Part shown: positions 6,257 to 28,430 of the stretch, in pieces
Numbering within the stretch: the first letter of the stretch is position 1
Layout: the number at the start of each line of letters is the position of its first letter
Origin: Chloroflexota bacterium
GTDB taxonomy: Bacteria; Chloroflexota; Limnocylindria; Limnocylindrales; CSP1-4
Direction of reading: 5' to 3'
NCBI GenBank assembly: GCA_003141245.1
Contig: PLLE01000039.1
Coordinates: 10,575 to 74,574 of the forward strand
DNA length: 64,000 bases
Translations under genes and position numbers: made by a program
The notes under the pieces: model-generated
What the model saw: only the letters and a program-made list of their open reading frames with translations
Told to the model about the DNA's origin: nothing
Database searches by the model: none

Positions 6257-7411
6257 TCAAGAACGCCCGCTCCCCGTCGGTCGGTCTGCCCGGGCCGATG
6301 GCTCCTCGGCGCCCGTTGCCCGGGCTCTCTCGGTTTGGACCCGAGCCTGCCTCCTGCGAGGACGACGGGCCCCTTCGGTAGTGTTGCGAAGGAGCAGCTT
6401 GGTCGGCAGAACCTGCCGCGTGGGCACGAATATCTCCGACCCAAGTTGCTTGAGCAGCAATCGGACCGCCTGGCGTCCGATCTCATCAATGTGTTGGTCA
6501 ACGCTGGTGAGGCTCATTACTGGCGACGCCGCAACTGCCGTCCCGTCGAACCCGGCGAGGGCCATGTCAGCGGGCATGCGCAGGCTCCGCCGAATGAGCA
6601 CTTCCATTGCACCGAGGGCAACCGCGTCGTTGATGGCGATGATCGCAGTGAGACCGCAACCCTCATCCAGCCACTTCTTCACGGCCCGCTCTCCGCTGGT
6701 CTTGGAGAACTCCCCTTGCACCACGAACCCCTTGGCATCCGCGACCTCGTCCATGGCTTGGGTGAAACCCCGGAGTCTCTCCGTGGCGTTCCCCGCAAAT
6801 GACGGCCCTCCGATGAACCCGATTCTCCGGTGGCCGCTCGAAAGCAAGTGACGGGTCAGCTCGGCTGCCCCACCGAAGTTGTCCGACACGACGTAGCTGA
6901 CCGATTCGTCCACCGGCGGTCGGTTGACAAATACGACACGGCGGTGGTCGCCGAGGACTGACAGCACGATGGCCTCGTCCCGCCCGACTGCGGCGTGGAT
7001 CACGCCATCGAGTCCCTGACAGAGAAGGCGCGTCAGATGGCGGTTCGTCTCGGCGATCCGATCGTCCGTGTTGCAGATCACGACCGTATAGCCGGCCTTT
7101 GCCGCCTCCTGCTCGATGCTCTTCGCGAGCTGGGGGTAGAAGGGGTTGGTGATGTCGCTGACAAGGAGCGCGAGCAAGTGCGTCTCCCCGGAGACAAGCG
7201 CCCGGGCGATCTGGGACGGCCTGTACTGCAGGGCCTCTATCGCCGCCTGCACTTTGGTCCGTGTCTCCGATCGAACGTCCACGTGCTCACGGATGACCCG
7301 TGACACCGTCGAGACGGAAACCCCCGCCGCGCCTGCGACATCAACGATCGTTGCTCGCGAGGACGCTCGCCTACCCAAGCTGCCTCCACTCTGATGACGC
7401 GTCCCAGCCAA
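6257..7411 (-). CDS. LacI family transcriptional regulator
   Basis: ATIVDVAGAAGVSVSTVSRVIREHVDVRSETRTKVQAAIEALQYRPSQIARAL plus a periplasmic-binding-like effector domain. Confidence 0.92.
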   Translation of the reverse strand: MAGTRHQSGGSLGRRASSRATIVDVAGAAGVSVSTVSRVIREHVDVRSETRTKVQAAIEALQYRPSQIARALVSGETHLLALLVSDITNPFYPQLAKSIEQEAAKAGYTVVICNTDDRIAETNRHLTRLLCQGLDGVIHAAVGRDEAIVLSVLGDHRRVVFVNRPPVDESVSYVVSDNFGGAAELTRHLLSSGHRRIGFIGGPSFAGNATERLRGFTQAMDEVADAKGFVVQGEFSKTSGERAVKKWLDEGCGLTAIIAINDAVALGAMEVLIRRSLRMPADMALAGFDGTAVAASPVMSLTSVDQHIDEIGRQAVRLLLKQLGSEIFVPTRQVLPTKLLLRNTTEGARRPRRRQARVQTERARATGAEEPSARADRPTGSGRS

Positions 7412-11453: not shown

Positions 11454-12652
11454 GGCCCCGTCCCGGCGGCAATGCCCTGGCATAGCGCTGTCTTGTCTAT
11501 GGACTTAACATCGATCAACATCTGCATGTTGGTCTTGTCGATAATGATCGACGGCACTGCCTTCGTCGGGACGCCGCTGGACGTGGTTCCGGTGAAGTAG
11601 CTCGCCGGCGGTGTCTGACCTGTCAAAATCATGACGGTCAGCTCAGCTGTGTACTGGGCCTGATTGTCAAACGACCGCCACGCGCTCATGGTCTGCAATC
11701 CCTTTAGGATCAGTTGATCACTAGCGAGACTGGCGTCGACGCCCGTTACCGGGACTTTTCCGGCGAGCCCGACGGTCTGCAGGGCGCCGATGGCGCCCTG
11801 GGCTGTGGAGTCGTTGGCGGTCAGAACTCCCTGCACGTTGTTGTGGGCCGCCGTGAGGATCGCGTCCATCTCCGCGTGGGCCTTGACTGTATCCCAGCCA
11901 GGAGTCCAGACGTCCCCTACCATCTTGCGAGCCCCGGAGTCGAACAGCGGCTTGAGCACGCTCATGTATCCGTCGTGTTCGAGGTGCGCAAAGGAGTCGT
12001 CTGTCGAGCCGGCGATGACGGCGATCGTGTCGCCGTCCTTGGTTTGGGCGACCATCCACGTGCCCAGCGCAACGCCGATCTCATGAGGATCGGCGCCGAC
12101 CATGTACTTGACCGGAGAGTTGGGGATCTCACGTGTATAGGCGATGACGGAGGCGTTGGCATCTTGGGCAGCCGACACGATCTTGCCCGCCTGCGTCCCG
12201 TCCACCGACGCCACTGCGAGAACCTTGGCTCCCTGAGTCAGCGCGGCCTGCGCCTGGGCGAGCTGATTCTGAGGGTCGCCGGTGGCGTTGAGTACGAGGA
12301 CCTTGACGTTCGGGGCCAGCGCTTTCATCCAGGTCTGGAAGGAAACCGCGTCCTGGCTGAGCCAGTGCGAGTCGGTGTTATCCGGCACCATGAACGCGAC
12401 CGTGCCTGTCACGTCCGAGGGGACCATGGATGAGCCTGGCACGGGCGAGGGGGCCACGACCGAGGGGGCCACGACCGAGGGGGCCACGACCGAGGGGGCC
12501 ACGACCGAGGGGGCCACGACCGAGGGGGCCACGACCGGGGCTGTGGGGGTCGCGACCGATGAGCTGCACCCGCCTACCACGGCGCTGACCAGCAACCCAA
12601 TCGCGGCTAGGGTGAGCGCCTTAGGCCGTGGGCGCACGTTCATTCTGTTCAT
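11447..12652 (-). CDS. sugar ABC transporter substrate-binding lipoprotein (ribose/xylose-binding type)
   Basis: MNRMNVRPRPKALTLAAIGLLVSAVVGGCSSS lipobox; VAFMVPDNTDSHWLSQDAVSFQTWMKALAPNVKVLVLNATGDPQNQLAQAQAALTQGAKVLAVASVDG. Confidence 0.9.
   Translation of the reverse strand: MNRMNVRPRPKALTLAAIGLLVSAVVGGCSSSVATPTAPVVAPSVVAPSVVAPSVVAPSVVAPSVVAPSPVPGSSMVPSDVTGTVAFMVPDNTDSHWLSQDAVSFQTWMKALAPNVKVLVLNATGDPQNQLAQAQAALTQGAKVLAVASVDGTQAGKIVSAAQDANASVIAYTREIPNSPVKYMVGADPHEIGVALGTWMVAQTKDGDTIAVIAGSTDDSFAHLEHDGYMSVLKPLFDSGARKMVGDVWTPGWDTVKAHAEMDAILTAAHNNVQGVLTANDSTAQGAIGALQTVGLAGKVPVTGVDASLASDQLILKGLQTMSAWRSFDNQAQYTAELTVMILTGQTPPASYFTGTTSSGVPTKAVPSIIIDKTNMQMLIDVKSIDKTALCQGIAAGTGPC
12447..12536. repeat. 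15-bp tandem repeat, 6 perfect copies, inside the substrate-binding protein gene
   Basis: (GAGGGGGCCACGACC)x6, encoding the (VVAPS)n linker just after the lipobox. Confidence 0.95.
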
Positions 12653-18159: not shown

Positions 18160-18737
18160 TAGCTCGGGGCCGGCTAGCTAGCGGTCCGGCTGACTAGAGT
18201 CGAATGGCGCGTTTCTGCCGGGCCTGCGTTCGAAGCTGCGGAAGGCCGCGGGGCCGGAGCGACTGCGAACTCCGGACAAGCTGTTCCGCCCGCCTCCCAC
18301 GACTTGAATGCCATGCCGGAAATGCTATGCTACATTCGAATGCATCCTGCAGTCTCGGTTTGTCGGACCAGCTTGTCCAGCGGGAAGGCGCCTGTGACGG
18401 AAGCCGTCGTAGTCGAGAACCAGCCGCTCGACACGATTTCGCGCCGTCTCAACGGCTGCTTTGCCGAACCTTTGGGCCAGTGCTGCTATGGTGGGTTGGG
18501 GATCGGGGTCGGCGTCGGCCCGATCGCCGCCAACATCCGGGCAGCAATGACTGTTCCGTCGAGCTGGCTGCTGAAGACAGACTCGCTCGGCGCCGTCAGC
18601 GACCCAGCCAACGCAGGGCGAGTGTCGCCGAGGCATCTGGCCGGGGACGACTGTCGGGCCGGACGATGCACCGTCACGTTGCCGCCGCACTCGACGGCAA
18701 CGATCGAGTTCGCCGCAAACGGAGCAGATCGAGACTG

Positions 18738-19952
18738 ATGGAAGCCAAGAGTCCGAGACGCAGTTCCACCGCATCCCACCGGGATGCCGCCAAGCGAGTG
18801 GCCGGGTCGACCGATCCCGCCGGTCAGAGGGGCGCCGACTCCCGATCGCAAGACGGCAACAGCCGGGGCCCGGCCGGGGCGGGGCGTCCGGCCGTTGCCG
18901 GGCATCCCACGCACATCCCGACGATGCAGGATATCGCCGACGCCAGCGGCGTCTCGCAGAGCACCGTCTCTCGGGTTCTCACGGGCGCCCCTAACCTAAT
19001 CCCGATCGGCCCGGCGACGCGGGAGCGAATCCTCGAAGTCGCACGCCAGATGCGGTATCGCCCGAACCCGCTGGCCCGCGGCCTGCGCGGCGCCCACACG
19101 ATGCTCCTGGGCGTGATCGTGCGCGAGATCACAGACCCGTTCTTCGCGGGCGCCGTCGACGCCATCTCCACCGCCGCCAACCGACGTGGCTACAACGTGG
19201 TCCTGGGCGATGCCCACGGCCGAACCGACGAGGCCATTGCCCTGCGCGCCGTCCTCGAGACGCGCCATTGCGATGCAATCGTGCTCCTTGGAGACACGAG
19301 CGATCAACCCCGTCTCATGGAGGATCTGCGAGATACCAGCTTCGCGGTCGTTGGCATGTGGCAGGGCACGTCCTCGATGTCCGGCATTTCGATCATCGGC
19401 GTGGACAACAAGTTCGGCGTGGATCTCCTGATGGATCACCTGCTCGGGCTCGGTCATCGCAAGATCGCGTTCATCGGCGGCGTCTTCGTCGAGGGCCGCC
19501 TGATCGGCGACATCGGGGAGCGAAGGGTGGCATTCCTGGAGCGTGCGGCGGCGGAGGGCCTCGAGACACCCGACGAGTTCGTTCGCGACGCGCGGAACAC
19601 GCTGGGCGGCGGAGCGGGAGCCCTCAAGGCGCTGATGGCGCTTCCGGAACGCCCCACCGCCATCGTCGCCTCGACCGACGTCCTAGCCATCGGCGCGCTT
19701 CATGCCGCCTGCCACATCGGCCTGGACGTGCCCGGCGAGATCTCCATCGTCGGCTTCGACGACCTGCCGATGGCCGAGTACACGACACCCGCCTTGACCA
19801 CGATCCACATGCCGATGGCGGAGATGGCGGAAGCGGGGGTGAAGGCGGCCGTCGGCGAGGACGGAGATTGCGAACCGATGACTCTCCAGCTCTTCAAGCC
19901 GGCGATCGTCGTCCGAGAGTCGTCCGGACCCGCCCCGGATCGCGGCGGATGA
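18738..19952 (+). CDS. LacI family transcriptional regulator
   Basis: TMQDIADASGVSQSTVSRVLTGAPNLIPIGPATRERILEVARQMRYRPNPLARGLRGAHTMLLGVIVREITDPFFAGAVDAI. Confidence 0.92.
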   Translation: MEAKSPRRSSTASHRDAAKRVAGSTDPAGQRGADSRSQDGNSRGPAGAGRPAVAGHPTHIPTMQDIADASGVSQSTVSRVLTGAPNLIPIGPATRERILEVARQMRYRPNPLARGLRGAHTMLLGVIVREITDPFFAGAVDAISTAANRRGYNVVLGDAHGRTDEAIALRAVLETRHCDAIVLLGDTSDQPRLMEDLRDTSFAVVGMWQGTSSMSGISIIGVDNKFGVDLLMDHLLGLGHRKIAFIGGVFVEGRLIGDIGERRVAFLERAAAEGLETPDEFVRDARNTLGGGAGALKALMALPERPTAIVASTDVLAIGALHAACHIGLDVPGEISIVGFDDLPMAEYTTPALTTIHMPMAEMAEAGVKAAVGEDGDCEPMTLQLFKPAIVVRESSGPAPDRGG

Positions 19953-20178: not shown

Positions 20179-22179
20179 TCAGAAGGCGATAGGGACGTCC
20201 GAGCCCTCCCGGACGAAGACGGGGATGTGCTCAAGAGGTGCGTCGGCGTGGACGGTCAAGCCGCCAGAGTGCCGGACGCCAGTCCAGGCGTCGACCCACG
20301 CGCCAGGCGGCAGGTATACGTCGCGAGCTCGGACGCCTGCTTCGGTGATTGGAGCCACCAGGACATCCGGGCCGAGCATAAACTCGTCGTCGGTCAGCCA
20401 CGACTGTGCGTCTTCCGGGTAGTCAACGAACAGAGGCCGCATCGGCGGAAGGCCCTCTTCGTGCGCCTTTCGCATCTGGTCCATGAGATAGGGTCGTATC
20501 CGCTCCCGGAGAATGAGCACGTCCCGGATGATCTCGTAGGCTTCCTCTCCGAACGCCCAGACCTCGTTGGCGCCACCGGTCATGTCCGCCCCGAACGCCT
20601 CCCGCGGTGCGCGATCGCCGTGGAGTCGGAAGAGAGGGCAGAAGACGCCATACTGGAACCATCTGACGACCAGTTCGCGGTACTCGGGCGACGTCGGGTC
20701 CCCGCCGTGGAAGCCGCCTATGTCAGTGGTCCACCAGGGAATACCTGACATGGCGATATTGAGACCGGCTCGAACCTGGCGACGCAGCGCGTCGAAGGTC
20801 GCTGGGATGTCCCCTGACCAAACCGCGGCGCCGTACTTCTGGCTGCCCGCCCAAGCAGATCGGCAGAGTGAAATGACGTCGTCCTCACCTGCCTCATGCA
20901 TTCCATCGTAGAAGCCTCGGGCGTGCATCTGCGGGTAGATGTTCAGGATCTCGTCGCCGTCGCCGGCATGGAACCGGAGGACCGACGGGTGGACGGGCCG
21001 AAGTTCCGGCTCGCAGGCATCGAGCCACCACACTTTGATGCCCAGATCGAAGTAGTTCTGCTTGATCTTCGACCACAGAAACGCCCGCGCTTCGGGGTTC
21101 GTGGCATCGTAGTGGGCGACTCCGAACGGCTTGGGCATGCCCCGATCAGGGAAGGTCGAGGTGTAGGGCAACCCCTGCTGAACACCGACGAGAAGGCCCC
21201 GCTCCGCCATCTCGTCCCAGTTCTCGCTGAACGGGCTAACCAACGGCCAGACCGACACCATGACTCGGACGCCGAGCTCGCGCAGCTCATCGACCATGGC
21301 CTTCGGGTCTGGCCAATCGGCAGGATCGAATTTCCAGTTACCTACCTGGATCCAGTGGAAGAAGTCGATGACGATGACCGACAGGGGCAAACCACGACGC
21401 TTGTACTCGCGCGCGACAGCGAGCAATTCATCCTGGGTCCGGTACCTCAACTTGCTCTGCCAGAACCCGCTCGCCCATTCGGGAAGAACCGGTGCGTGGC
21501 CCGTCGCGTCGGCGTAGTGGCGCATGATCTGGGCCGGGTCACCCGCTGTGATCCAGTAGTCGATCTGGCGGCTCGCGTCGGCCACCCATCGAGTGCGGTT
21601 CTCGGCAAGCTCGACGTGACCGACCGCGGGGTTGTTCCACAAGAAGCCGTATCCGCGGCTCGAAACGAGGAACGGTATGCAGACGTCGGAGTTGCGCTGC
21701 AACAGGTCGAGCGTCAGTCCCTTTTGGTCGAGCCTTCCGTGAGGATGCTGCCCGAGACCGTAGATGCGTTCGTCATCGTACGCACGGAAGTGCTGCTCGA
21801 TCTTGGCGCGGCCGCCCCCGAGCGAATAGAAGACACGCGCGCCGGGCCACCAGAAATGACCCCTCTGCTCGCCGAGCAGCTCTCGCCCGGTTGCGGCATC
21901 CTCGAACCGGACCAGGAGCACATCTCCGCCATCGCCGATGTCTTTCATGACGACGGCGGCGATCGCTCCGTTGGTCAACCGCGCGCCAGTCTCGCCGATC
22001 TCAAAGTGCGCTTCCGACGTGAGCTCCACAGGCCGCTCGTCCAAGGCCCCGGGCAGCCCGTCGAGAATGCGGTCCCAGCCGGCGCGGACCCGAATGCTGT
22101 CAGCCCCCCAGGGCTCGATACGCAAGATCTCGTGCTCTGACCTGAATTCGAGGCCATCTCCGACGCGCTGAACAAGCAT
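20179..22179 (-). CDS. glycoside hydrolase family 31 (alpha-xylosidase/alpha-glucosidase-like)
   Basis: YGLGQHPHGRLDQKG, GFWQSKLRYRTQDELLAVAREYKRRGLPLSVIVIDFFHW, KVWWLDACEPE, SGIPWWTTDIGGFHGG, PLFRLHGDRAPREAF. Confidence 0.93.
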   Translation of the reverse strand: MLVQRVGDGLEFRSEHEILRIEPWGADSIRVRAGWDRILDGLPGALDERPVELTSEAHFEIGETGARLTNGAIAAVVMKDIGDGGDVLLVRFEDAATGRELLGEQRGHFWWPGARVFYSLGGGRAKIEQHFRAYDDERIYGLGQHPHGRLDQKGLTLDLLQRNSDVCIPFLVSSRGYGFLWNNPAVGHVELAENRTRWVADASRQIDYWITAGDPAQIMRHYADATGHAPVLPEWASGFWQSKLRYRTQDELLAVAREYKRRGLPLSVIVIDFFHWIQVGNWKFDPADWPDPKAMVDELRELGVRVMVSVWPLVSPFSENWDEMAERGLLVGVQQGLPYTSTFPDRGMPKPFGVAHYDATNPEARAFLWSKIKQNYFDLGIKVWWLDACEPELRPVHPSVLRFHAGDGDEILNIYPQMHARGFYDGMHEAGEDDVISLCRSAWAGSQKYGAAVWSGDIPATFDALRRQVRAGLNIAMSGIPWWTTDIGGFHGGDPTSPEYRELVVRWFQYGVFCPLFRLHGDRAPREAFGADMTGGANEVWAFGEEAYEIIRDVLILRERIRPYLMDQMRKAHEEGLPPMRPLFVDYPEDAQSWLTDDEFMLGPDVLVAPITEAGVRARDVYLPPGAWVDAWTGVRHSGGLTVHADAPLEHIPVFVREGSDVPIAF

Positions 22180-22273: not shown

Positions 22274-23143
22274 CTATTCCTTGAGCGCGCCCGCCGTGAT
22301 ACCAGCTGCGACGTAGCGCTGAGCGATTGCCACCAAGAACGCCGCGGGAATGACGGCTATCACGGCCGTGGCCATGATAGACGGCCACTGTACCGAGGAG
22401 AAACCGATGAACCGGTAGATGCCCACGGTGATCGGCACGTGGTCGGGGTTGTTGTTGAGGATGAGAGCGAACAGGAAGTCACCCCAGCCGAAGAGGAACG
22501 AAAAGAGGCTGGCGGTGATCAATGCCGTCCGACTCAGCGGAACGTATATGGACCGGAAGATCCGGAGCTGGCCAGCGCCATCCACCTTTGCGGCCTCCGA
22601 CAGCTCACCGGGAATCCCGATCATGAAGGCGCGCATGATGATGATTGCGAAGGGAACGGCGATAGTCGAGTCGGCGAGTATCACTGCCTGATACGAGTTG
22701 AGCAGCCCGAGGCTGCTGAAGGCCGAGTAGAGCGAGTTGGCGATTACGAACCCGGGAGCCATCTGGGCCAGGATCAGACTGAACAGAAGGAGCGAGCCAA
22801 TCCGAGCCCTGAAGGTTGCGAGCGCATAGGCGGCTGGGGTCGCCACGAGCATCGTGACTACGACCGTGCCCAGAGCATAGATGAAACTGGATTGGATGTA
22901 TCCACCAGCGGTCGAAAGAGCATTCCTATACGCATCCAGCGTTGGATTCGGCGGGATGAACGGTGGCGGAGTCTGAAGAATCTCCATCTGGTTCATGAAA
23001 GAGAGGTTCACGATCCAGTAGAGCGGGAAGAGCATGAACCCAGTTATGAGTATGCCCGCCGCTGTCCAGCCGACCGTCTTGAGCCGCGGCCGTAACGACT
23101 TGGTATGTCGCGAGCGCGCCGGGATTGGTGTGCTGCCGCTCAT
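22274..23143 (-). CDS. carbohydrate ABC transporter permease (MalG-like)
   Basis: YWIVNLSFMNQMEILQTPPPFIPPNPTLDAYRNAL...IPGELSEAAKVDGAGQLRIFRSIYVPLSRTALITASLFSFLFGWGDFLFALIL (EAA loop). Confidence 0.93.
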   Translation of the reverse strand: MSGSTPIPARSRHTKSLRPRLKTVGWTAAGILITGFMLFPLYWIVNLSFMNQMEILQTPPPFIPPNPTLDAYRNALSTAGGYIQSSFIYALGTVVVTMLVATPAAYALATFRARIGSLLLFSLILAQMAPGFVIANSLYSAFSSLGLLNSYQAVILADSTIAVPFAIIIMRAFMIGIPGELSEAAKVDGAGQLRIFRSIYVPLSRTALITASLFSFLFGWGDFLFALILNNNPDHVPITVGIYRFIGFSSVQWPSIMATAVIAVIPAAFLVAIAQRYVAAGITAGALKE

Positions 23144-24108
23144 GAGGCCGTTTCCCTATTTTCGCGGTATGCGTAGCGCAAATACAGCATGCCGAAGGCG
23201 AAAACGACTACTAGGAGGATGTCGCCTGCAGCCGCTCCGAGACCGAAGTCGAACCCGTTCGTGAACCCAAGACTGTAGGCCCACGTGTTCAGAGTCTGAC
23301 TCGTGTTGGCCGGTCCCCCTCGTGTGATCGACATGATCACGTCGAACACCTTCAGCGTGTACACCAGTCCGAGGAGCAGCACCACCGTCGACACGGGACG
23401 TAGGAGCGGCCATGTAATGTACCGGAACCCTTGCCATGCGGATGCACCGTCGATCGAGGCCGCCTCGTAGAGGACGCGGGGGATCGCCTGAAGCCCTCCG
23501 TAGAGGATCACCATGTTGAACGGGATACCAATCCAGATATTCGCGATCAACACGGATATGAGTGACAGGTGGGGATCAGTAAGCCAAGAGATCTGGCCCT
23601 GGTATCCCAACGAGTGGATGGCGAAATTGATGACGCCGGTGTCCTGGTCGAAAAGGCGAACCCAGATTGCACCCGAAACGAGAACAGGAGCCAGCCACGG
23701 AACCAGGATCAAAGCTCGCAAGATGCTGTTGAGCGGGAACTTGTGCTGGTAGAAAAGGGCGATCAAGAGGCCCAGGGTGAACTGGAAGAACAGCGACCCG
23801 ACCGTAAACCAGACTGTGTTGGTTACGGCGGGCCAGAATTCCGGGTTGTTCACCAGGCGCTTGAAGTTGTCCAGCCCGATGAAGGGGGCCTCGCCGGTGA
23901 CGAACGTCTTGAGCGTGTACTTCTCAAGGCTCATCAGGAAGTTGAAGGCGATCGGGTATACGTAGAAGGCCAAGACATACACGAGCGCCGGCAGGAGAAA
24001 CAGTAGACCAACGATCCGCTCGCGTCGCCAGCGCCGCAGCCGTCGAGGCTGATGAGAGACGGGCGCGGCCGCCTTCGCAGCCGCGCCCGTCTCGACGACA
24101 CGCGTCAT
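23140..24108 (-). CDS. sugar ABC transporter permease (MalF-like)
   Basis: LFLLPALVYVLAFYVYPIAFNFLMSLEKYTLKTF...IPRVLYEAASIDGASAWQGFRYITWPLLRPVSTVVLLLGLVYTLKVFDVIMSITRGGP. Confidence 0.93.
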   Translation of the reverse strand: MTRVVETGAAAKAAAPVSHQPRRLRRWRRERIVGLLFLLPALVYVLAFYVYPIAFNFLMSLEKYTLKTFVTGEAPFIGLDNFKRLVNNPEFWPAVTNTVWFTVGSLFFQFTLGLLIALFYQHKFPLNSILRALILVPWLAPVLVSGAIWVRLFDQDTGVINFAIHSLGYQGQISWLTDPHLSLISVLIANIWIGIPFNMVILYGGLQAIPRVLYEAASIDGASAWQGFRYITWPLLRPVSTVVLLLGLVYTLKVFDVIMSITRGGPANTSQTLNTWAYSLGFTNGFDFGLGAAAGDILLVVVFAFGMLYLRYAYRENRETAS

Positions 24109-24130: not shown

Positions 24131-25447
24131 TCAGCTTCCCGCCAACGCGGCAGCGGCCGCTTGCTGGGCTGCTGTCAGGGCGTCCTGAGGTGACTTGGCG
24201 CCACTCAATGCTGCCTGGATTGCCGTCCACAGTGGCTGAGACACCTTGCTGTAGTTCGGTCCAAGGTTAGCAGGTGGGCCAGTTCGCGACCGCTCCGCAG
24301 CGGCAGCGGTAACAAAGGACGCCATGTTGGGATCGGCCGTAGCTGCTTGCGCGGCAACGGTCTGGCGGGATGGAATGTACGCCTGAAGCGTCGCCCATTC
24401 CGCCATCTCCTTGTCTGACAGCAGGCAGTTGACGACCTTGCCCGCAGCCGCGGAGGTGGCCGCGTCAGAGTTGACCGGGATGGTCGCCACTTCGCCACCC
24501 ATAGGGCCCGGAGCAGCGCCGCCGTTAGGCTGGGGGATGGGCACTATGCCGAAGTTGATCTTGGACTTCTCGAGTGTGGAGAGGTTCCAGACGCCGTTCT
24601 GTTCCATCGCGGTCTTGCCCGCTTCGAACTGGCTCTCGACATCTGCCTGAGTCCACTGAACCACGGACTTGGAAGCGGACCCGCTGTTGACGAGGTCTGT
24701 CCAGAACTGCAGCGCCTGAACGGCTTGAGGCGAGTCGAGCTTCGAGAGATCTCCGCCCGCGCCCCAGAGCCACGGCTCGAATTGCCAGCTTCCTTCCTCG
24801 GTCGCCGGCGCCGAGAATGCCATGCCGTAGACGCCGCTCTTGGTCAGCGCCTTGGCAGCGGCCGTGACCTCGGCCCAGGTCGTGGGCGGCTTCACGCCGG
24901 CCGCTGTGAACATGTCCTTGTTGTAGAACAGGGCCATGCCGTTGATACCAGGAGCGATGCCGTAGACCTTGCCCTTGTAGGTGCCGGCATCGATCAAGTT
25001 CTGGTACAGCCCGGTGAGGTCGACTCCGTAGTCGGTCAGCGGTGCCAGAGCACCCGTGTCTGCGATTTGCTGGAGATCGGGGTTGTCGATCATCAGCACG
25101 TTCGGCAGCTGCTTTTGCTGTGCGGCGAGTATGACCTTGTTGATCAACTCGTCACGCGGAAACGACTGTCGCTTGATCGTGATGCCGGTCGACGCGGTGC
25201 ACTCGTCGAGCACCGTCTGCCACTGCTTTGTCTGTGGATCGACGTTCTGGTAATCCCACTCCGTGACAGTCGTCGCGGCAGCTACGGACGGCACTGGTGT
25301 TGCCGTCGGCGTCCCTGGTGTCGGCGTCCCTGTTGTCGGCGTCCCTGTTGTCGGCGTCCCTGCCGGTGTTGGGGTCGTGCCACTCGAGCTGCACGCAGCC
25401 ACGAGCAGCACGACTGCCCCAATCGCGGTCAGCCTGTTAACCCGCAT
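24131..25447 (-). CDS. extracellular solute-binding lipoprotein (CUT1 family)
   Basis: MRVNRLTAIGAVVLLVAACSSSGTTPTPAG lipobox; VTEWDYQNVDPQTKQWQTVLDECTASTGITIKRQSFPRDELINKVILAAQQKQLPNVLMIDNPDLQQIADTGALAPL. Confidence 0.92.
   Translation of the reverse strand: MRVNRLTAIGAVVLLVAACSSSGTTPTPAGTPTTGTPTTGTPTPGTPTATPVPSVAAATTVTEWDYQNVDPQTKQWQTVLDECTASTGITIKRQSFPRDELINKVILAAQQKQLPNVLMIDNPDLQQIADTGALAPLTDYGVDLTGLYQNLIDAGTYKGKVYGIAPGINGMALFYNKDMFTAAGVKPPTTWAEVTAAAKALTKSGVYGMAFSAPATEEGSWQFEPWLWGAGGDLSKLDSPQAVQALQFWTDLVNSGSASKSVVQWTQADVESQFEAGKTAMEQNGVWNLSTLEKSKINFGIVPIPQPNGGAAPGPMGGEVATIPVNSDAATSAAAGKVVNCLLSDKEMAEWATLQAYIPSRQTVAAQAATADPNMASFVTAAAAERSRTGPPANLGPNYSKVSQPLWTAIQAALSGAKSPQDALTAAQQAAAAALAGS
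25305..25364. repeat. 15-bp tandem repeat, 4 copies, in the solute-binding protein linker
   Basis: (GTCGGCGTCCCTGKT)n, encoding GTPTTGTPTTGTPTPGTPT. Confidence 0.9.
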
Positions 25448-25464
25448 GTGCTTCCTGCCTTCCT

Positions 25465-25482
25465 ATACTCCAGTCAGAGTAT
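25465..25482. promoter_or_regulatory. Inverted repeat ATACTC-N6-GAGTAT upstream of the CUT1 solute-binding protein gene
   Basis: 6-bp perfect arms 18 bp upstream of the ATG (25447) on the minus strand. Confidence 0.4.
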
Positions 25483-25621
25483 TCCCCCTTGAATTGGGCC
25501 CGGTGTTCCGACTGGCTACCTCCTCCGCTCCTCGACAAGTTACCTGCATCATTGGCCAGACTCGCCGAAGCGCCTACTGGCGCCGCCAGGATCGGCCCGG
25601 ACGAGTGAATACATATGTAGC

Positions 25622-25687
25622 ATACGATTGCAGACCCGTCAAGGGTTTGATACGATTGCCGCCGAAGGATAACCAACATACGATTGC
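25622..25687. promoter_or_regulatory. Three ATACGATTGC direct repeats at exact 28-bp spacing upstream of xylA
   Basis: ATACGATTGC at 25622-25631, 25650-25659 and 25678-25687; a TACATATGTA palindrome lies just upstream at about 25610. Confidence 0.7.
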
Positions 25688-25723
25688 ATGGCTCGCATAC
25701 GCAGCCATTAAGGAGGTCAGAGC

Positions 25724-26917
25724 ATGGTCCAACTCCAAAGCCGGGGCGTCGAGGAGACGAGCCTCCAGCCCCGCCCAGAACACAAGTTCAGCTTTGGACT
25801 CTGGACCGTGGGCAACTCCGGCCGCGATCAGTTCGGCGAAGCGACCCGCGCGCGCCTCGATCCCAACGATTCGGTCCGCCGGCTCGCCGAGCTCGGTGCC
25901 TTCGGCATCTCCCTGCACGACAACGACCTCGTCCCCTTCGACGCCACCCCGGCAGACCGCGACGCAATCGTCGCCCGCTTTCGCAAGACCCTCGCTGAGA
26001 CCGGCATGGTCGTATCCATGGCGACGACCAACCTGTTCGGCCATCCCGTCTTCAAGGACGGCGCCTTCACCAGCAACGACCGCGCCGTGCGCCGCTACGC
26101 AATCGCCAAGACGATGCGCGCGATCGACCTCGGGGCCGAGCTTGGCGCGCCGGTGTACGACTTCTGGGGCGGGCGCGAAGGGGTCGAAGCCATGGCAGCC
26201 AAACCGCCCGCCGATGCCCTCGATCGATACCGCGAGGCGATCGACTTCCTGTGCGGCTACGTCCTCGATCGCAAGTACCCAATGCGCTTTGTCATCGAGC
26301 CCAAGCCGAACGAACCGCGGGGCGACGCTTTCCTGCCCACGGTTGGCCACGCCCTGGCTTTCATCGGCATGCTCGAGCATCCCGAGATGGTCGGCGTCAA
26401 CCCCGAGACCGCCCACGAGACGATGTCCGGCCTGAGCTTCTACCACGCGGTCGCCCAGGCTATCTGGCAGGGCAAGCTCTTCCACATCGATCTCAACGGC
26501 CAGAAGATCGGCCGCTACGACCAGGACCTCCGTTTCGGCTCGGAGGGGCTCAAGGACGCCTTCTTCCTGGTCAAGCTGCTCGAGGAGTCCGGGTACGACG
26601 GCCCCCGGCATTTCGACGCTCATGCATATCGCAACGAAGATGCGGAGGGCGTGTGGGACTTCGCCGCGGGGTGCATGCGGACGTATCTCATCCTGCGCGA
26701 GAAGGCAAAGGCCTTCGCCGCCGACAAGGAGATACAAGCCGCTCTGGCCGAAGCGTCGGTTGCGGAGCTTGCCGAACCGACGGTGGGGTCGTATTCGCCC
26801 GCAGCCGCGGCCGCACTGCGAGCGCACCCCGGCGATCCCGACGCCCTGGCGATCCGCGGCTACCACAACGAGCGCCTCGACCAGCTGGTCATGGAACTGC
26901 TGATGGGTGCACGCTAA
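25724..26917 (+). CDS. xylA: xylose isomerase
   Basis: [55 protein letters not shown]...[32 protein letters not shown]...DFWGGREG...[26 protein letters not shown]. Confidence 0.95.
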
Positions 26918-26978: not shown

Positions 26979-28430
26979 ATGAAGACACTCATCGCCGGCG
27001 TCGACTGCTCGACCCAGTCGACCAAGGTCGTCGTAGTCGACTTGGAAACCGGCGAGATCGTCGCGACCGGCCGTGCTCAGCACGCCGTGACCGGAACGGG
27101 CGGAGCGCGCGAGACCCATCCCGACGTCTGGTGGGAGGCGCTCTGCCACGCCCTCGCCCAGACCGGCCACGCCAACCGGATCGCCGCGATCTCCGTCGCG
27201 GGGCAGCAGCACGGCCTCGTCTGCCTTGATGCCGCGGGCCGGCCGCTGCGGCCGGCGATGCTCTGGAACGACACTCGCTCCGCCTCCGATGCGATCGGCC
27301 TGCTCGAGGCGCTGGGCGGCGCCACCGCGTGGGCCGCCCGGATCGGAGTCGTGCCGGTCGCCTCGTTCACCGCGTCGAAATGGGCCTGGGTTCGTCGGCG
27401 CGAACCGGGCGTCGCAGCCAGGACAGCGGCGATCCGTCTACCGCACGACTACCTGACGGAGCGGCTCGCAGGGGTGGGCGTGACCGATCGAGGCGACGCG
27501 TCGGGCACGGGCTGGTGGTCCACCGCAACCGAGAGCTACTCGACCGAGGTCCTTGGGCTCGCGAGCATCGAGCTGCCAGTGGAGTTCCTGCCCCGGGTGG
27601 CGAAGTCGACCGAAGCCGCGGGCGCGGTCACTCCGGCGGCGGCGCTCGCGACCGGGTTGCCAACCGGCGCGCTGGTCGGCCCCGGCACCGGAGACAACAT
27701 GAGCGCTGCCCTGGGGTTGGGGCTCGGGCCCGGAACGCCCGTCATCAGCCTGGGCACATCCGGCACGGCATACATGGTGTCGGGGACGAGGATCGCCGAT
27801 CCATCGGGCGATGTCGCCGGATTCGCCGACGCCTCCGGCCGCTTTCTGCCCCTCGCCTGCACGCTCAACTGCACTCTGGCGGTCGACCGGATGGCAGAGT
27901 GGCTCAGGCTCGATCGAGACGACGTGGTCCCGAGCCGTGGCGTCGTGACTCTCCCCTACTTCGACGGTGAGCGCACGCCGAACGTGCCCGACGCATCCGC
28001 CGCGGTTCTGGGACTGCGCCACGACACGGATCCACGGTCGATTCTCATGGCCACCTACGAGGGAGCGGTGATCGGGCTTCTGGACGCACTCGAGACGATC
28101 GACCGGTGCTCGTCGGGTATCGATCCCGAGGCGGCACTCGTCTTGATCGGTGGTGGCGCTCGGAGCGAAACCTGGCAGCGCGTGGTTCAGCGTCTCTCCG
28201 GCCGGGCCATCTCCATACCGAGGTCCACCGAGCTCGTGGCCATCGGCGCCGCCGTCCAGGCCGCTGCCATGCTTGGCGGCCAGGACTTGCAGGAAGTCGC
28301 TTCGCGCTGGCACACGAGCACCGGTACGCTGCTGGAGCCGATGCCGCGTGACATGGAAACGATTTCGCGTCATCGTGCCGTCCGTCAACTCGCGCTCGAT
28401 GCTGTGCGGAGCCCTCGGAGCAAGCGATGA
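26979..28430 (+). CDS. xylB: xylulokinase
   Basis: LIAGVDCSTQSTKVVVVDLETGEIVATG...ISVAGQQHGLVCLDAAGRPLRPAMLWNDTRS...VGPGTGDNMSAALGLGLGPGTPVISLGTSGTAY. Confidence 0.93.
   Translation: MKTLIAGVDCSTQSTKVVVVDLETGEIVATGRAQHAVTGTGGARETHPDVWWEALCHALAQTGHANRIAAISVAGQQHGLVCLDAAGRPLRPAMLWNDTRSASDAIGLLEALGGATAWAARIGVVPVASFTASKWAWVRRREPGVAARTAAIRLPHDYLTERLAGVGVTDRGDASGTGWWSTATESYSTEVLGLASIELPVEFLPRVAKSTEAAGAVTPAAALATGLPTGALVGPGTGDNMSAALGLGLGPGTPVISLGTSGTAYMVSGTRIADPSGDVAGFADASGRFLPLACTLNCTLAVDRMAEWLRLDRDDVVPSRGVVTLPYFDGERTPNVPDASAAVLGLRHDTDPRSILMATYEGAVIGLLDALETIDRCSSGIDPEAALVLIGGGARSETWQRVVQRLSGRAISIPRSTELVAIGAAVQAAAMLGGQDLQEVASRWHTSTGTLLEPMPRDMETISRHRAVRQLALDAVRSPRSKR

Follow-up and report, generated by a model that had tools for sequence, protein, structure and literature searches.

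Putative divergent promoter and operator module for xylose use, probably run by an autoregulated LacI-family repressor, in an uncultured Chloroflexi genome

What is the role of three identical ten-base words that are placed at equal steps ahead of a xylose isomerase gene? In the 64,000-nucleotide stretch of Chloroflexota DNA analysed here (the window), ATACGATTGC occurred in three exact copies at 25622–25631, 25650–25659 and 25678–25687, 28 bp apart, as described in the initial annotation, which took the regular spacing to imply co-operative binding of one regulator. No further copy was found in the 64-kb window at ≤1 mismatch, and exact matching throughout the 2.54-Mb genome returned these three copies only (reversed control = 0). 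Among the exact 10-mers of the window, no other set of three is both non-tandem and equally spaced, and none arose in 60 simulations of the window under a first-order Markov model. Tandem duplication was rejected as the origin of the copies, since their flanks have no sequence in common, and a reading of 25400–25800 as an RNA element or riboswitch was ruled out by the absence of Rfam matches there (0 at E ≤ 1). Instead, we favour, with a probability of roughly three in four, a divergent module of promoters and operators that serves xylose use and would be run by an autoregulated LacI-family repressor encoded at 18924–19952.

The repeats lie between divergently oriented genes, which agrees with their earlier placement. 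The genes concerned were as follows.

18924–19952, plus strand: LacI-family regulator LacI_2, the putative cognate repressor (PF00356 and PF13377).
20179–22179, minus strand: GH31 glycosidase, alpha-xylosidase-like.
22274–24108, minus strand: two ABC-transporter permeases (PF00528).
24131–25447, minus strand: sugar-binding lipoprotein of the divergent ABC transporter.
25710–25716, plus strand: ribosome-binding site AAGGAGG of xylA.
25724–26917, plus strand: xylA, xylose isomerase of the TIGR02631 type (NCBIfam 584.9 bits, cut-off 447).
26979–28430, plus strand: xylB, xylulokinase (TIGR01312 439 bits, cut-off 380).

The LacI_2 gene is located just past the GH31 gene; its helix-turn-helix (HTH) and sugar-binding domains were detected in 18204–19952 with a domain start near 18924; the actual N-terminus could be slightly further upstream. 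Many relatives of xylA were found outside Chloroflexi, e.g., in actinobacteria at 60–72% identity, and inter-phylum transfer of the gene is possible. The group to which this genome belongs within Chloroflexi is known from fen and soil metagenomes. Elsewhere in the window, the sugar-binding protein has a TPTTG linker behind its lipoprotein signal, encoded by 15-bp repeats at 25305–25345, and a tandem repeat at 12446–12510 comprises about four copies of the 15-bp unit CGAGGGGGCCACGAC.

Upstream regions of xylA were compared among 12 genomes of the same genus (xylA proteins 76–92% identical), and this promoter alignment, which had been suggested as a check on the repeats, bore out copies 1 and 3 but not copy 2, which was present in no relative. 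The block common to the relatives consists of ATACCTATGTAGCATACGCATGC, then GTCAAG at 16–20 bases from where copy 1 begins, followed by TTG[CA]TG, 17 bases and TACGAT-TGC. Copy 1 makes up the right-hand part of a conserved box in which mean column conservation was 0.96, as against 0.48 and 0.54 in the flanks; because box sites were gathered by a pattern search with ≤2 mismatches followed by an exact-core filter, invariance of the core is inflated. The 2-mismatch search added just one variant site. The box, searched as CNTATGTAGCATACG, was present in 12 of 177 genomes of the class (reversed-control matches = 0), namely in 12 of 12 genus genomes with this xylA and in none of the remaining 165 class genomes (within the genus, 0 of the other 9), and these 12 are exactly the genomes that hold both this xylA and an orthologue of LacI_2. 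Conservation alongside the orthologous regulator and its targets was therefore seen for the box and not for copy 2. In some relatives, second copies of the box were observed upstream of CUT2-type sugar transporters (L131:10456, L136:14690, L138:425 and L140:3631), so the regulon would be larger there.

Within the box, copy 1 forms the CG-centred palindrome GCATAC|GATTGC at 25620–25631 (candidate operator 1), which was the best even palindrome available (4.88 of 6 pairs); copies 2 and 3 are poorer palindromes (2–4 of 6 pairs). The half-site of PurR-like proteins is GCAnnC. LacI-family operators are usually CG-centred even palindromes (PMC4052901). The odd palindrome TATG-TAG-CATA also fits the box (4.06 of 6) and the invariant part of the box reaches to the left of copy 1, so the binding register is ambiguous. 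The perfect palindrome TACATATGTA, previously annotated ahead of the repeats, was indeed seen at 25610–25619, with a symmetry that is perfect in this species alone (TACCTATGTA in relatives, TACGTATGTA in one).

Orthologues of LacI_2 (64–87% identity) were found in all 12 genomes with the box, whereas the best LacI matches in the other 9 genus genomes reached only about 30% identity, and 11 of the 12 carry the gene close to xylA on one contig. In 13 aligned orthologous sequences, the HTH motif SQSTVSRV and the hinge YRPNPLARGLRG were invariant; NCBIfam equivalog scores for LacI_2 were far under the cut-off. The box core ATGTAGCATA occurred twice genome-wide, once in the xylA box and once upstream of the LacI_2 gene itself, at the following site.

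18317–18345, minus strand: second box-core site upstream of LacI_2, GCATTCGAATGTAGCATAGCATTTCCG, conserved in L132, L133 and L142.

This site was within background in a 15-letter weight-matrix scan of the 64-kb window (scores 11–12, ranked about sixth), but the exact core does separate it from background. In L142, the core site is immediately followed by a GH51 arabinofuranosidase gene and then by lacI; here, a remnant of the GH51 gene (18394–18732) lies between the candidate operator and lacI, and its tblastn pieces correspond to residues 1–34 and 438–507 of the intact L142 gene, indicating that the middle of the gene was deleted. A genome-wide LacI regulon was also sought through GCATACGNNTGC and rejected, as counts in genomes with and without LacI_2 were close to the reversed control, xylose loci aside, and the short word alone is thus uninformative. 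Co-occurrence with the box, the core ahead of lacI and the conserved helix and hinge together point to LacI_2 as the likely repressor of the xylA/transporter divergon, and the core upstream of its own gene suggests, in silico, autoregulation. The single-regulator reading of the initial annotation hence survives in part: the divergon has its cis-regulatory DNA here, and its likely regulator is one of the LacI proteins that the window encodes, but co-operativity does not follow from the spacing.

The candidate regulatory elements between the two transcription units were as follows.

25609–25631, plus strand: conserved box ATACATATGTAGCATACGATTGC (consensus ATACCTATGTAGCATACGCATGC, GCATACCTATGTAGCATACGCATGC in relatives), kept across genus genomes with xylA.
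25614–25619, minus strand: candidate -10 of the divergent promoter, TACATA, from sequence and spacing (3 of 6 to consensus).
25637–25642, minus strand: putative -35 of the divergent transporter promoter, TTGACG, from conservation of GTCAAG.
25648–25659, plus strand: copy 2, TGATACGATTGC, species-specific, with its TTGC starting the xylA -35.
25656–25661, plus strand: putative -35 of the xylA promoter, TTGCCG (TTGCTG, TTGATG or TTGCGG at that place in relatives).
25676–25687, plus strand: copy 3, ACATACGATTGC, with the -10 TACGAT at 25679–25684 and an overlapping candidate operator 3.

Copy 3 was kept 56–58 bp downstream of copy 1 in relatives, although it was degraded in L133 and L139, where the box is present. 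TTGNNN occurred exactly 17 bp before TA[CG]GAT at 10 sites in relatives, and copy 3 was therefore read as the xylA -10. As in a sigma-70-type promoter, a conserved -35 and -10 were found at copies 2 and 3 with a fixed spacer within 16–18 bp; their hexamers are weak and match the consensus at 7–8 of 12 positions, which explains why a consensus promoter scanner detected no promoter. For the leftward promoter, every box flanked on that side by a divergent transporter contained GTCAAG (14 of 14), and neither of the two boxes lacking such a transporter did (L135 and L139). The distance from the leftward TTGAC of GTCAAG to TACATA was 17–18 bp in most loci, with a 17-bp spacer here, and candidate operator 1 falls in this spacer. 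At the position of copy 2, relatives mostly have GGACTTG[CA]TGAC, and copy 2 itself may be a weak third operator or a -35 variant. Because the repeat word contains both the TTGC of a -35 and the TACGAT of a -10, a 17-bp spacer results in 28 bp between copies 2 and 3, and the 56-bp distance from copy 1 to copy 3 then leaves an equal 28-bp step from copy 1 to copy 2. The even spacing is thus mostly set by the positions of promoter parts.

The same geometry would suit a reading in which copies 2 and 3 are core-promoter elements only, belonging to two chained promoters, with LacI_2 acting on the upstream box alone. In both successive pairs of copies, TTGC lies at an exact 17-bp spacing from the next TACGAT, and the conserved part at copy 3 coincides with the -35 and -10. 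We nevertheless regard this as unlikely, because conservation around copy 3 extends to TGC after the -10, to GGCA before it and to a large part of the spacer, and its whole word is like copy 1, none of which a core promoter needs. A more elaborate proposal, which we hold to be quite unlikely, is that the word serves as operator, -10 and -35 at once, the three copies at 28 bp forming chained promoters on which one LacI repressor would cover all helix faces, with copy 2 as a recently gained additional operator and the box as two overlapping LacI sites at a distance of 13 bp. The box gave a hint of such a 13-bp double operator, with centres 4 and 17, but symmetry at the lacI site gave no support to it; 13 bp is a known peak of LacI-site distances whose binding mode is unexplained (PMC4052901).

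That the copies are three iterons, bound co-operatively by one regulator through their regular spacing, appears decidedly improbable, even though their exact identity and equal 28-bp steps are not expected by chance. Copies 1 and 3 alone are conserved and lie in different promoter elements, the middle copy is unconserved, the distance between copies 1 and 3 varies from 56 to 58 bp, and 28 bp corresponds to about 2.7 helical turns, which is off helical phase and outside the 13/22/32-bp peaks of LacI sites (PMC4052901). Control by another regulator, whether LacI_1 (6257–7411), which is also encoded in the window, a ROK-type XylR of the kind often used by xylose operons elsewhere (PMC12285236), or an activator, is the most improbable, as tblastn with LacI_1 gave matches of about 26–34% in the box loci, nearly all of them on the LacI_2 genes themselves (hence no orthologue there), the search of L142 for other regulators turned up a MarR protein, some 7 kb away from the box, and no ROK gene, and LacI_2 alone tracks the box and has the core upstream.

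For the favoured LacI_2 module, the following mechanism can be proposed. Without inducer, the LacI_2 dimer would occupy two sites: operator 1 (copy 1), which adjoins and enters the leftward transporter promoter, and operator 3 (copy 3), which covers the xylA -10. Both transcription units would then be off; the inducer, probably xylose or a xylo-oligosaccharide, would free LacI_2. In this species, a third copy would have appeared at the xylA -35; the repeat word combines a -10-like part (TACGAT) with a -35-like part (TTGC). Here, we infer binding, repression, the inducer and the role of copy 2.

The initial annotation had also drawn a contrast between two xylA starts, as it found no repeat upstream of a truncated xylA. 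Indeed, no copy of ATACGATTGC was present near the xylA fragment at 1728–1889, but this second xylA start is a gene remnant: its bases encode 54 residues before the frame enters unrelated sequence, and a 102-bp stretch (1786–1887) is 97% identical to the xylA of the window. The missing repeats are thus uninformative on regulation and provide no test of differential control. At 1728–2080, the 5' remnant is joined to sequence resembling the end of an insertion element, and it looks like a short recent duplication or recombination.

Comparison among genomes thus lends good support to a predicted pair of regulator and operator by which uncultured soil Chloroflexi would control xylose use, and the locus illustrates that what look like iterons can be copies of an operator word that interlocks with the geometry of a promoter. 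It also offers natural variants, i.e., the copy 2 gained in this species, the loss of the -35 where the divergent transporter is absent, and possible 13-bp overlapping operators.

The type of module, a divergent LacI-type operator/promoter, is already known, and copy 2 is its sole unusual element. As in the local sugar regulons of the LacI family (RegPrecise-type divergons; Ravcheev et al. 2014, PMC4052901), candidate operators, of which copy 1 may be an even palindrome with the CG centre usual there, precede sugar catabolism and transport operons, with tandem sites, predicted autoregulation, which is common in such regulons but not universal, and a regulator gene that adjoins its targets; however, the distances here are 28 bp and 56–58 bp where 13/22/32 are usual, the candidate operator 3 is merged with a -10, and in one species a third copy lies on the -35. 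LacI-type control of pentose and xylan genes is likewise found in Caldicellulosiruptorales (XynR; PMC12285236), although xylose genes there are under the ROK protein XylR, whereas xylA here is apparently under a LacI-family protein. The nearest solved structures to LacI_2 by sequence are CcpA/PurR-type LacI proteins (PDB 1zvv, 1rzr and 2pua), from which LacI_2 differs in being a local regulator.
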